From contig JAFTKC010000004.1 of NCBI GenBank assembly GCA_017456055.1, forward strand, positions 1-39,079: DNA of 39,079 nucleotides, in the 5' to 3' direction. Source of the DNA: Clostridia bacterium. Its GTDB lineage: Bacteria > Bacillota > Clostridia > Christensenellales > Borkfalkiaceae. The notes under the pieces are model-generated. The model had not been told where the DNA came from. It made no database searches and was given only the letters and a program-made list of their open reading frames with translations. The position numbers and the translations under genes were made by a program. Below are positions 31,277 to 38,135 of this stretch, piece by piece; position 1 is the first letter of the stretch; each line of letters begins with the position of its first letter.

Positions 31277-31297
31277 AATATTTCAATTAAAACTTAA

Positions 31298-31553
31298 AAG
31301 GCGATGAAGAGAAATAGTAAACTATGCTAGTTTTTAGAGAGAAGACGGGTGGTGAAAGTCTTTAACCAAGGTAGTTGAACCCATCTTAGAGCCACGCGTG
31401 AATAACCTAATGGTTAGTAAGCGTCGTCGGGTTCTCCCGTAATAGAGAAAAGGCGTTTTGCCGAAAGAGTGCGGAAAGCAACCGAATTTAGGTGGTACCG
31501 CGGACAAAAAAAGTTCGCCCTAAACTAATTGCAATTAGTTTAGGGCTTTTTAT
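31298..31553 (+). promoter_or_regulatory. T-box riboswitch, proline-specific
   Basis: A tRNA-sensing leader before proS. It opens with GATGAAGAG..TAGTA, shows a Stem I GGGTGGTGAAAG element, a specifier triplet CCC (31380-31382) in GAACCCATC, the T-box AGGTGGTACCGCGG (31490-31503), and a terminator with GCCCTAAACTAATT (31517-31530) pairing to AATTAGTTTAGGGC (31533-31546) followed by a T run. CCC is a proline codon, fitting the downstream gene. Uncharged tRNA-Pro would favour read-through. Confidence 0.93.
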
Positions 31554-31579: not shown

Positions 31580-33277
31580 ATGAAACTAGATAAATTAGTA
31601 GGCGAAAGATTTAAAGAAAGACCGTCTGATTGTACGGTAGATAGCCACGCTCTTATGGTTAGGGGCGGGTATATGAAATACGTTGCAAACGGTATTTTTT
31701 CTTCGTATATGCCCCTAAAACGCATTACTCGTAAAATAGAGCAAATTTTGCGTGAAGAAATGGACGCTATCGACGGGCAAGAAGTTCAATTCCCAGTAGT
31801 TATGCCGGCACAACTTTGGCAAGAATCGGGCAGATACGAGAGTATTGGCAAAGAATTAGTTCGTTTTAAGGATAGAAGTGAAGGACCACTCGTTCTCGGT
31901 ATGACGCACGAGGAGGCTGCCGTTCAACTTGTTAGAGAATATGCGCAAAGTTATAACAAATACCCCTTTATGATTTACCAAATTCAAACCAAATTCCGTG
32001 ACGAAGCAAGACCTAAGTCGGGACTTATGCGTGTGCGTGAATTTACTATGAAAGACGCTTATTCTTTCCACACTAGCCAACAAGATTTAGAGGAATATTA
32101 CGATAAGTGTCACAAGGCTTACGAGCGTATTTTTGCAAGAGTTGGTATTCCTGAAGTCGTTTCAGTTGCGTCTGACTCTGGTATGATGGGTGGAAACATA
32201 TCCCACGAATTTATGCTCTTAACCGATATTGGTGAAGACTCTATCGCTATTTGTACCGACTGCGATTATCGTGCTAACGTTGAGGCTGCTGAAAATATCG
32301 TAGAATACGTAAGGGACGAAGAATCACAAGAACTTAAAATGGTTCACACTCCCGACCAAAAGACTATCGAAGAAGTTTGCGCTTTCTTAAATAGCGACGA
32401 AAAGAAGTCTTGCAAGGCAGTAGTTTATCAAAGAAATATCGACGATAAATATATCGTTTTATTCTTGCGTGGAGATTTAGAAGTTAACGAAACTAAACTA
32501 ACAAACTTCTTAGGCTTTGAAATTCACCCAGCCCTTATCACCGAAGAGTGTGGTTTAACGGCAGGTTTTATCGGTCCATATAATCTAAAGGGCGACTATA
32601 TCGTTTTATTCGACCAATCGCTTAAGGGTATGAACAACGTTGTTTGTGGCGCAAATACTACCGATTATCATTACACCGGTTTAGATATGGAAAGAGATTT
32701 AGGCGAAGTAGAGTATTACGACTTTGCTAAAATTCAAGAGGGTGGAATTTGTCCAAAATGTGGCAAGAAAACCATAAAAGTTTCTCGTGGAATAGAAGTG
32801 GGCAATATTTTCCAACTCGGCACTAAATATACAAAGGCTATGAATATGACCTACGTTGATAGCGAAAGCAATATTCAAAATCCAATAATGGGTTGCTACG
32901 GAATAGGCGTTGGTAGACTTGCTGCGGCAATTTGCGAAGTTCACCACGACGATTACGGCCCAATTTGGCCAAAGGCAATAGCGCCTTACGAGGTTCACTT
33001 ATGCGCCGTTAGGGCAGATAATCCCGAAATAAAAGAATTTGCCGACAAACTCTACGAAGAATTAAGGGCAAAGGGAGTAGAGGTTATCTACGACGATAGA
33101 AACGTTAGCGCAGGAATAATGTTTTCGGATGCAGACCTTTTAGGCGTTCCTTGTAGGGTAATCGTAAGCCCAAGAAACATTAAGCAAGGCATTGTTGAAA
33201 TCGTGGCTAGAGATAAGAGTTTCTCAGTTAGCGCTCCAATGGAAAACGCTCTAGAAGAAATTATAAAGAAATTATAA
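31580..33277 (+). CDS. proS: prolyl-tRNA synthetase
   Basis: A class II synthetase that charges tRNA-Pro. The 565-residue length and architecture are those of the bacterial-type enzyme: motif 1 region around LPLKRITRKIEQILREEMD (MPLKRI here), motif 2 FRDEARPKSGLMRVREFTMKDAYSF in two adjoining parts, an inserted YbaK-like editing domain (about 220-390) and motif 3 GCYGIGVGRLAAAICE, then a C-terminal anticodon-binding domain. It has a GGAGGAG site and is controlled by the T-box leader. A strong terminator follows. Confidence 0.96.
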   Translation: MKLDKLVGERFKERPSDCTVDSHALMVRGGYMKYVANGIFSSYMPLKRITRKIEQILREEMDAIDGQEVQFPVVMPAQLWQESGRYESIGKELVRFKDRSEGPLVLGMTHEEAAVQLVREYAQSYNKYPFMIYQIQTKFRDEARPKSGLMRVREFTMKDAYSFHTSQQDLEEYYDKCHKAYERIFARVGIPEVVSVASDSGMMGGNISHEFMLLTDIGEDSIAICTDCDYRANVEAAENIVEYVRDEESQELKMVHTPDQKTIEEVCAFLNSDEKKSCKAVVYQRNIDDKYIVLFLRGDLEVNETKLTNFLGFEIHPALITEECGLTAGFIGPYNLKGDYIVLFDQSLKGMNNVVCGANTTDYHYTGLDMERDLGEVEYYDFAKIQEGGICPKCGKKTIKVSRGIEVGNIFQLGTKYTKAMNMTYVDSESNIQNPIMGCYGIGVGRLAAAICEVHHDDYGPIWPKAIAPYEVHLCAVRADNPEIKEFADKLYEELRAKGVEVIYDDRNVSAGIMFSDADLLGVPCRVIVSPRNIKQGIVEIVARDKSFSVSAPMENALEEIIKKL

Positions 33278-34945: not shown

Positions 34946-36025
<1,080 letters not shown>

Positions 36026-36045
36026 GCGAAACAAGGGTTAAACTA

Positions 36046-36074
36046 TTGAAAAAGCCTTAAAATTATGATAAAAT
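36046..36074 (+). promoter_or_regulatory. promoter of the TIR-V4R/asparaginase operon
   Basis: TTGAAA (36046-36051), 17 nt, TAAAAT (36069-36074) with an upstream TG. It lies between mnmA and the TIR gene, so the pair is independently expressed. Confidence 0.7.
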
Positions 36075-36104
36075 AAACAAAAGAAATTATACGGTGGTTT
36101 TAGT

Positions 36105-37106
36105 ATGGAAAAGGAAATTTTTATAAGTTATACAACTAACGATAAGGCTGTGGCAGATTCACTAGTTGCTTATCTAGAAGGGCTAGGATACGACTGCTTT
36201 ATTGCGCCTAGAGATATTGACCCAGGTAAAGCCTACGCAGCTAACTTAATGACGGCTATTTCAAACTGCAAACTAGTAGTTCTAATTGCCTCCCAGTCAA
36301 TCAATAATTCCGAGCATTGCTTAAACGAGGTAGACGTTGTCACCGAGAGAAAAAAGCCAATACTTCCTATTTTTATCGAAGAATTTTCACTAAACGACGA
36401 TTATCGTTATTACCTCGGCAGAAAACAACAAATTTTTGCATACCCCGACAAGTTCGAAAAGTATTTTTCTAAGATTTTAGACGGAATCGAAGGCTACTGC
36501 CCAAGAACGAATAAAAAGGCAAAAATCGAAGAAGCAGAAGATGAAATCACCGAAAAGGCAACTAAAACCATCTTTGAATATATTCCAGAACGTGGAATTA
36601 TGATTAACCCTGAAGACCACCAAAGAAACGTAAGTTTTAGAAACGACACGCTAATTAACCTTATGGGTGGAATCTACGAAAAGGTTGCGGGACTAGTTGA
36701 CGAAACCACGGCTGAAGATATTTTCTATTCTAGTGGCTACGCAGGAGGCAAGAATTTCGGCGAAAGAATTAAAAATCAATGGAATTTTGGGTATTCTTTA
36801 GAAGAAATAAAGAAAAAACTCGATAAATGGTGTAAATTTGACTCGGCTGTAGGTTGGGGTAAATTTACTATCGAACTAAACTACAACGAACAAGAAGATA
36901 GTTTAACCGGTACTTTAAGTATAAGCGAGGCGTTTATCGTCGATAAAGTAAATAAACGTAAAATTTGCGGATTTATTCGTGGATATTGCACGGGTGTAAT
37001 TCAAACGCTTTTAGATTCGCCAAACGTGGAACTAAAATGTAAAGATTGCCCGCTTAAGAGTATGTTCAAAAACTCTTGCGTGTTTGAATTTTGCATTAAA
37101 GACTAA
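36105..37106 (+). CDS. TIR domain protein with C-terminal V4R-like ligand-binding domain
   Basis: A 333-residue soluble protein. Residues 1-130 form a bacterial TIR domain: IFISYTTNDKAVADSL, FIAPRDIDPGKAY, CKLVVLIASQSINNSEHCLNEV, with Glu75 at the place of the catalytic glutamate of NAD-cleaving TIRs. A charged linker follows (about 135-160). Residues 175-333 resemble the V4R (4-vinyl reductase, XylR/BchJ-type) small-molecule-binding domain: GKNFGERI, SLEEIKKKLDKW, GWGKFTIEL, then CGFIRGYCTGVIQTLL and a Cys-rich end with Cys at 312, 315, 325 and 330. A ligand-gated NAD-processing sensor is a plausible inference. An asparaginase gene follows after 16 nt. Confidence 0.78.
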   Translation: MEKEIFISYTTNDKAVADSLVAYLEGLGYDCFIAPRDIDPGKAYAANLMTAISNCKLVVLIASQSINNSEHCLNEVDVVTERKKPILPIFIEEFSLNDDYRYYLGRKQQIFAYPDKFEKYFSKILDGIEGYCPRTNKKAKIEEAEDEITEKATKTIFEYIPERGIMINPEDHQRNVSFRNDTLINLMGGIYEKVAGLVDETTAEDIFYSSGYAGGKNFGERIKNQWNFGYSLEEIKKKLDKWCKFDSAVGWGKFTIELNYNEQEDSLTGTLSISEAFIVDKVNKRKICGFIRGYCTGVIQTLLDSPNVELKCKDCPLKSMFKNSCVFEFCIKD

Positions 37107-37122
37107 TTAAAGGACTATAAAA

Positions 37123-38100
37123 ATGAAAATTTTAGTTATTTTTACGGGTGGAACTATCGGCAGTTCGGAGGGGAGAAAATGGATTTCTCTCGACAAATCG
37201 ACTAGTTTTACCTTGCTTGAAAACTACAAAAAAGAAAATGGGCTAGACGTGGATTTCGAGGTGGAAAATCCGTATAGTATTTTAAGCGAAAATCTTTCAA
37301 GTGAGGAATTAACTTCTCTTTGTAAATTGGTCAGCGAAAAGGCTAAAGGTGATTATAACGGAATTATCGTCACTCACGGCACGGATACTATTCAGTACAC
37401 GGCGGCGGCACTTGCTTACACGGTAAAAACTAAAATTCCTATTCTTTTGGTTTCTGCAAACTACCCACTAGAAAACCCAATGAGCAACGGCAATTCCAAT
37501 TTTAAAGGTGCAGTCGACTTTATTTCTAAAGGGGCTCAAAAGGGCGTTTTTGTGGCTTATAAAAACAAGGGCAGTGAGTTTGTAGACGTGCATCTTGCTG
37601 CTTCTCTAGTTGGTCATTTAGAGGGTAGAGACGAGATTTTTGGGCTTGAAGAAAAACCTTTCGCGCAAGTAAAAGATGGCGAAATTTTGCTCAATAAAAC
37701 CCCTATTATATATAATGTTTTAAAAAGGGAAGTGGAGTTTTGCGCTTCACCTAGTGTTTTGGTTATAAATAGTAGACCGGGCGATAACTTCGATTACGAT
37801 TTAGAAAATATTAAAGCCGCTCTAATTAAGCCCTATCACTCTGGTACTCTCAACACGGCAAACCAAGACTTAAAAGATTTTTGTAAGAGAGCAAAGGAAA
37901 AAGATATTCCCGTGTTTTTAGCAAACGTGTATGGTGGCTCGACTTACGAGAGTTCTAAAACTTATAAGGAATTAGGATTAACCGTTTTGCCTTTCTCGGC
38001 AATTCCCGCAATCTACGTTAAAATCTGGATTGCAATAAGTCTAAAAGAAAATATTAAAGAATTCGTTCTAAAAGAAATAGCGGGCGAATTTATAAAATAA
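37123..38100 (+). CDS. type I-like L-asparaginase
   Basis: A 325-residue cytoplasmic asparaginase-family protein. The two catalytic-threonine blocks are intact: TGGTIGS (8-14, Thr11) and THGTDT (84-89, Thr87-Asp88). A conserved SANYPLENPMSNGNSN region follows, and the C-terminal domain contains VYGGSTYES. It would hydrolyse asparagine to aspartate and ammonia, though activity toward glutamine or other amides is possible. No signal peptide is present. It is 16 nt downstream of the TIR-V4R gene with an AAAGGA site, so they form an operon, which is unusual for an asparaginase. Confidence 0.88.
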   Translation: MKILVIFTGGTIGSSEGRKWISLDKSTSFTLLENYKKENGLDVDFEVENPYSILSENLSSEELTSLCKLVSEKAKGDYNGIIVTHGTDTIQYTAAALAYTVKTKIPILLVSANYPLENPMSNGNSNFKGAVDFISKGAQKGVFVAYKNKGSEFVDVHLAASLVGHLEGRDEIFGLEEKPFAQVKDGEILLNKTPIIYNVLKREVEFCASPSVLVINSRPGDNFDYDLENIKAALIKPYHSGTLNTANQDLKDFCKRAKEKDIPVFLANVYGGSTYESSKTYKELGLTVLPFSAIPAIYVKIWIAISLKENIKEFVLKEIAGEFIK

Positions 38101-38106
38101 AGATTA

Positions 38107-38135
38107 AAACATCCGAAAAGCTTCGGGTGTTTTTC
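38107..38135 (+). terminator. terminator after the asparaginase gene
   Basis: ACATCCGAA, loop AAGC, TTCGGGTGT, then T5. Confidence 0.85.

Follow-up and report, generated by a model that had tools for sequence, protein, structure and literature searches.

A patchily distributed TIR-V4R fusion gene and its asparaginase-like neighbour in Clostridia: a candidate sensor-effector module with exchangeable outputs

In the genome of a Clostridia bacterium, a TIR domain protein whose C-terminal half resembles the sensor domains of catabolic regulators is encoded immediately upstream of an asparaginase-like protein. This arrangement raises the question of whether the two genes form a functional unit and, if so, what such a unit could sense and which response it could trigger. 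The window, i.e., the whole stretch of DNA that was analysed, comprises 39,079 nt (GCA_017456055.1, contig JAFTKC010000004.1, positions 1-39,079). The TIR-XylR_N/V4R fusion gene (36105..37106, plus strand) codes for 333 amino acids and is separated by 16 nt from the partner gene (37123..38100, plus strand), whose product of 325 amino acids belongs to PF00710 and lacks the triad-II lysine. The pair is preceded by a predicted sigma-70 promoter, TTGAAA-17-TAAAAT with a TG ahead of the second hexamer (36046..36074, plus strand, 10/12 matches), and followed by a terminator-like hairpin with 12 pairs, four of which are G-C (38106..38133, plus strand). Both signals are consensus predictions only, and the window contains 12 promoter-like sites compared to 7.2 (sd 2.7) in shuffled sequences and three terminator-like sites compared to 2.2 (sd 1.4). 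The gene mnmA is located upstream of the pair, and the downstream contig end falls inside a 16S rRNA gene. Other gene families of the window are dnaA, dnaN, gidA, gidB, parA, parB and the 60-kDa membrane insertase. A T-box leader is found at 31295-31525, ahead of a gene at 31580 that was assigned by eye as proline-tRNA-ligase-like. The same genome contains two further TIR-like matches (G000:C11:146898-147266 and G000:C24:1054-1464), which are located in open frames of 620 and 361 amino acids, respectively.

The TIR domain encompasses amino acids 1-130 of the fusion protein (36105..36494, plus strand). It is matched by TIR_2 (PF13676) over amino acids 5-113 (8.6e-19, 68.7 bits, cut-off 28) and by PF01582 with 40.8 bits (cut-off 21.3). 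The glutamate E75 (codon GAG, 36327..36329, plus strand) is invariant in 14/14 TIR-V4R proteins, a count that takes in the protein of genome G137, and is presumed to be the catalytic glutamate. In a profile search of the PDB, E75 was aligned opposite a glutamate of the plant TIR protein Roq1, which we take to be the catalytic one of that protein; further matches include the SPARTA TIR-APAZ protein (4.1e-5), Cat1 (9.5e-5) and SpbK (0.0076). The sequence-only reading had described a TIR domain that keeps this presumed catalytic residue, and the description was confirmed, with coordinates, lengths and the 16-nt gap being exact. NAD+ cleavage is possible for TIR domains of defence systems (PMC12847820).

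The C-terminal half of the fusion protein had been read as a V4R domain. This assignment stands by profile-profile homology; however, the scores stay below the Pfam thresholds. The XylR_N and V4R sensor domain spans amino acids 154-333 (36564..37103, plus strand) and was delimited using hhalign and subthreshold Pfam matches in relatives. The window protein itself has no V4R match in Pfam, even at E 10 for the C-terminal half. Among 15 aligned relatives (alignment A4), V4R matches ten (best 7.0e-4) and XylR_N matches nine (best 7.2e-4), all of them below the curated cut-offs; the best relative, L009, reaches 20.1 bits for V4R (cut-off 31) and 19.7 bits for XylR_N (cut-off 23). As an independent comparison set, 11 sensor domains of XylR-type regulators were taken from plasmid records (A5). 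hhalign aligned the 15-row A4 with A5 over 147 columns (A4 positions 5-163) with a score of 38.7, a P of 2.2e-5 and a probability of 76%, and the 13-row alignment A3 with a score of 34.3 and a probability of 56%. The controls gave a maximum of 22.9 in 100 column shuffles, 16.6 for the reversed profile, 11.9 for a TIR profile and 13.8 for an asparaginase profile. Since the score of 38.7 stands against controls of at most 22.9, the V4R call is backed by sequence, and homology of this half to the XylR_N-V4R sensor half of XylR-type regulators is supported by the profile comparison. A search of the PDB with the V4R profile returned 5t3b (0.27) as the only match, which was taken as chance.

Two conserved features characterize this sensor half. 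The motif RGIMINPEDHQRNVSFR at amino acids 163-179 (36591..36641, plus strand) is invariant in 13/13 proteins and becomes RGIMINPSDQHRNVSFR in G137, with three positions differing; MIN..D...N[VI]SFR is retained by V4R-like relatives that lack a TIR domain. Furthermore, the cysteines C288, C312, C315 and C325 (36966..37079, plus strand), all of which are present in 18/18 V4R-like rows, constitute a candidate metal site. In the XylR-type domains of A5, C149, E172, C175 and C183 are invariant (11/11), and this Cys-Glu-Cys-Cys set presumably has a zinc role in MopR. The cysteine spacing of 24/3/10 resembles the 23/3/8 of XylR, yet both hhalign and MAFFT align C312 with C175 and not with E172. The similarity could point to a four-cysteine version of the XylR set, although the position of C312 in the two alignments makes this tentative, and the four cysteines at the V4R end may likewise bind a metal. 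The likeness to XylR of pWW0, MobR and DmpR-type sensors consists of the homology over 147 columns, the domain order and the cysteine-rich V4R end. In contrast to these sensors, whose output is a sigma-54 activator, the output here is a TIR domain or a separate membrane protein, and the domain scores under the Pfam cut-offs. GPxxH, a motif of these aromatic sensors whose histidine presumably touches the ligand, is absent, and FDSxVGWG is found at the corresponding place.

The partner protein is matched by PF00710 with 108.5 bits (cut-off 22.5), and its nearest PDB chain is the asparaginase 9ufr (1.8e-28); TIGR00519 reaches 95.5 bits compared to a cut-off of 260.5. T11, T87 and D88, which represent the nucleophile threonine and the Thr-Asp pair, are invariant in 13/13 TIR-linked partners. 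By contrast with the type I (cytosolic) L-asparaginases and GatD, with which it shares PF00710 and the GGT and HGTD motifs, the partner lacks the triad-II lysine, which we take to be K162 of E. coli AnsB. The corresponding column contains a glycine in the window partner, and none of the 13 TIR-linked partners has a lysine at this position. Among 57 aligned rows, the lysine is missing in 42 and present in 15/15 canonical rows; after addition of four rows from the genus g98, it is missing in 46/46 rows of the clade and kept in 15, with an indel lying close to this column of the alignment. The 42 lysine-less rows form one group in the tree (support 100/100), of which 41 have kept the GGT threonine, the remaining one being clipped by a contig end, and 42/42 the Thr/Ser-Asp pair; a subgroup of ten rows carries a glutamine at the triad-II column. 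Because the clade is devoid of the canonical catalytic lysine, the partner is probably not an ordinary asparaginase. The earlier idea that amide or ammonia metabolism is involved as a partner or target of the TIR protein is weakened by the missing lysine in 13/13 partners. The idea that these genomes carry the partner in addition to a conventional asparaginase found no support, as the 12 partner genomes each contain one match to the A2 profile (E 0.001), namely the linked one.

A pattern-limited contig scan of genomes yielded 15 loci, which comprise 12 full-length relatives with 48-78% identity and three TIR-only matches (L013-L015) that were left out of the pair count. The asparaginase-like gene is located directly 3' of the TIR-V4R gene in 12/12 named contigs, with spacings that lie between an overlap of 1 base and a gap of 75 nt, depending on the starts chosen. 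Together with the window and G137, in which no partner gene was found within about 8 kb of the TIR-V4R gene, the pairing is present in 13 of the 14 full-length TIR-V4R loci, so that the linkage, whose recurrence had been proposed as a check, extends beyond this genome. In this count, L009 and L011, near neighbours with identical flanking genes, represent two of the 13, and G057, the same locus as L012, was not counted. The other neighbours mostly differ between the loci, apart from those shared by L009 and L011, and several contigs end close by. By eye, an additional ABC-transporter-like ORF was seen upstream of the pair in L002.

Distances between the 13 pairs correlate with 0.92 for fusion and partner, 0.90 for V4R and partner, 0.70 for TIR and partner and 0.58 for TIR and V4R; these values were equalled by 0, 0, 0 and 1 of 5000 label permutations, respectively. 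Common descent alone can be sufficient for such correlated divergence; the ranking of the correlations suggests that V4R and the partner may form the core. The linkage is not strictly one-to-one, a model that was rejected on the basis of 28 unpaired rows of the lysine-less clade and the fusion gene of G137, which has no partner nearby. No V4R or TIR profile match at 0.01 was detected in 43 stretches around these 28 rows, which cover 1.5 kb flanks and, for 14/28, also longer stretches, with the stretch of G724 being cut at the 5' side and neighbours in the longer stretches being named by eye. Therefore, the partner is more widespread than the module. The 13 TIR-linked rows are found within one subgroup of 18 rows (support 94/85, second tree 97/91), which includes five unpaired ones; the linkage was therefore lost or gained several times. 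ORFs of the lysine-less clade were observed in Clostridia at L057-L060, L082-L105 and L155-L158, mostly with no V4R or TIR beside them.

The module has a patchy distribution. The V4R profile matches 1/391 genomes of the class sample, which is the window genome, and 3/396 genomes of the order sample (window, G137, G197); around two partner genomes, it matches 2/98 and 1/146, which added no new ones. The asparaginase profile matches 27/391 genomes of the class sample at 1e-30, including the window genome and one lysine-bearing protein. In a sample of 101 relatives, which should contain at least 40 genomes of the window genus, 20 match the asparaginase profile including the window genome, and none of the other 19 is marked as the same genus. 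The same-genus genomes of this sample contain no full-length TIR-V4R protein, and TIR-only matches were found in three. Inspection of 19 same-genus mnmA loci, most of them from incomplete genomes, revealed that in L119, L125 and L128 the interval from mnmA to the rRNA leader, which continues into 16S, contains no ORF longer than 73 amino acids, while the rRNA leader is reached in L136 and L137 after a different gene, which fills the gap. The empty mnmA-16S site in three same-genus genomes and the lack of a same-genus partner thus suggest that the two genes were gained or lost jointly. The two-gene unit that the sequence-only reading had suggested is supported by the pairing in 13/14 loci, the correlation of r=0.92 and the empty site. 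The boundary after mnmA (window 36023-36104; L119-L137) holds different genes across the genus and may therefore be a site of gene turnover.

A second architecture, in which the TIR domain is missing, was found in the genus g98. Around G197, the V4R profile matches 7/298 genomes (G137, G197, G994, G996, G998, G440 and G158). The TIR-less V4R-like open frames of G197, G994, G996 and G998 consist of 236-253 codons, and in 4/4 intact g98 loci, a gene encoding a membrane protein comes before the V4R-like gene and one for a lysine-less asparaginase-like protein after it. These upstream proteins are homologous, have a length of about 200 amino acids, possess one N-terminal hydrophobic segment and share 54-60% identity with that of G998; by eye, they have coiled-coil character. 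The three-gene units were observed at L042:7085-8418, L155, L156:4081-6418 and L157. In G440, a C-terminal V4R remnant (L158:2143-2478) lies beside an open partner frame of the lysine-less type. The match in G158 (2.5e-4) is located in an apparent CRISPR locus, with cas genes recognized by eye, and was taken as chance. Library matches of the g98 proteins are weak and were discounted: PD-Lambda-1 (5.9e-4) in one of two scanned upstream proteins, RT_UG25 (5.6e-4) for the V4R-like protein, and ATG17_like (0.0028). The g98 loci indicate that the TIR domain and the membrane protein substitute for one another; judged by gene content, the constant core is the V4R domain and the lysine-less asparaginase, and the output part is swapped. 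The TIR-linked and the g98 partners are separated in the trees; therefore, the association between V4R and the partner is either old or has arisen twice.

A role of this apparently horizontally moved, patchy module in defence is plausible but unproven. The surroundings of the pair in the window are housekeeping genes (dnaA, dnaN, gidA, parAB) rather than a defence island. Pattern-limited scans for the fusion revealed one TIR-only match in phage records and none in plasmid records or IMG/VR, and scans for the partner revealed three half-length matches in phage records and none in IMG/VR. PADLOC and NCBIfam give no defence-system membership: PADLOC had no match for the partner, and the NCBIfam Thoeris model ThcB4 reached 32.1 bits compared to a cut-off of 220. 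The patchiness (class and order samples, empty site) and the exchange of effectors would favour phage protection, whereas the housekeeping site and the missing fusion copies in phages and plasmids lend it no support. As separate observations made by eye, a Cas9-like ORF of 1359 amino acids (L001:656-4735) lies near the locus whose pair is most closely related to that of the window, and a second TIR-like ORF of 695 amino acids (L008:8193-10280) immediately follows the pair in another locus.

We propose, at somewhat short of an even chance, that the genes encode a small, patchy and apparently mobile sensor-effector module in which a core of V4R and partner gates a TIR or membrane effector. From the sequence comparisons, this proposal takes the domain homology, the conserved linkage, the change in the partner's active site, the output exchange and the empty site. 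The constant part would consist of a sensor of the XylR_N/V4R type, which may contain a structural metal site, and the lysine-less asparaginase-like protein encoded next to it; the variable effector would be either the TIR domain, which is joined to the sensor in the window, the 12 named contigs and G137, or, in g98, the separate protein with one N-terminal hydrophobic segment. The ligand in the V4R pocket might be a small molecule or else the partner itself, and the asparaginase-like protein would set the ligand state by making, removing or sequestering the ligand. A change of this state during infection or stress would free the TIR domain, which is probably an NADase and could cleave NAD+ and halt growth, while the membrane variant of g98 would exert its effect at the envelope. 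In this scheme, the asparaginase-like protein would be the gate and not the effector, because TIR-V4R lacks a nearby partner in only 1/14 loci, the partner is often unpaired, and the V4R domain has decayed in G440. A nicotinamide link was also considered, in which the TIR domain would release nicotinamide, V4R would bind small rings and the partner would deamidate.

The wide distribution of the unpaired partner clade, which suggests a general role, the housekeeping surroundings and the absence of the fusion from the plasmid and IMG/VR searches would also be expected of a metabolic regulator outside immunity, in which the TIR domain is an interaction or slow NAD-consuming module and the protein controls the pathway of its partner. 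V4R proteins are chiefly linked to regulation and signal transduction (PMC2253512). We nevertheless consider such a regulator unlikely, though a serious contender, since presence in 1/391 genomes of the class sample and the swap between TIR and membrane protein fit conflict systems better. A role of the partner as the effector is conceivable as well: in a Thoeris-like order, V4R would sense the trigger, the TIR domain would produce an ADP-ribose-type signal and the partner would be the nucleotide-activated effector. Type I asparaginases are allosteric. The TIR gene and its partner lie in one apparent transcription unit, similar to the operon of NADase and effector in Thoeris (PMC12847820). However, the partner stays beside a V4R protein without a fused TIR domain in g98, 28 members of the clade lack any adjacent TIR or V4R match and PADLOC does not recognize the partner, which renders a Thoeris-like order improbable in our view. 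The asymmetric dependence, with 13/14 fusions being paired while the partner often stands alone, the decay of V4R in G440 beside an open partner frame and the divergence of V4R and partner in step are reminiscent of a toxin-antitoxin pair, in which the partner would physically neutralise a TIR NADase whose default state is toxic and V4R would be a mere dock. The fusion of G137 does without a nearby partner, however, and a ligand-sensor fold would be odd as a pure dock; we therefore give this possibility very little weight.

No TIR-V4R protein and no TIR-asparaginase unit was found to be described in the open-access papers searched. Like Thoeris (ThsB and ThsA), the module encodes a TIR protein beside a second conserved gene and is patchily present; however, the second gene of Thoeris is of the SIR2-SLOG, Macro or caspase-like type and not asparaginase-like. 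SpbK, for which NADase activity was shown (PMC12847820), also joins a TIR domain to another domain within one protein, but its TIR domain is located in the second half (chain 137-218), whereas the fusion described here starts with the TIR domain, continues with V4R and has a partner gene. The TIR output is of a known kind, and, as far as searched, the V4R-asparaginase core and the exchange of its output are new.

The presence of a membrane protein in place of the TIR domain in g98 points to a so far undescribed sensing module whose outputs can be exchanged. It is possible, although we hold it only tentatively and with less confidence than the module itself, that V4R and the lysine-less asparaginase represent a new signalling core, distinct from all cores known in immunity or stress, that gates interchangeable effectors, with the asparaginase fold having been turned from an amide hydrolase into a ligand-handling gate. 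Bacterial TIR systems differ by their trigger, and a metabolite-sensor fold of catabolic regulators that is combined with a TIR domain and an altered amidohydrolase would constitute a trigger of a new type. The analysis also provides a first lead on the lysine-less asparaginase-like proteins that form a clade in Clostridia. The swap between the TIR domain and the membrane protein makes the question testable: if the proposal is true, the core rather than the effector would define the signal.
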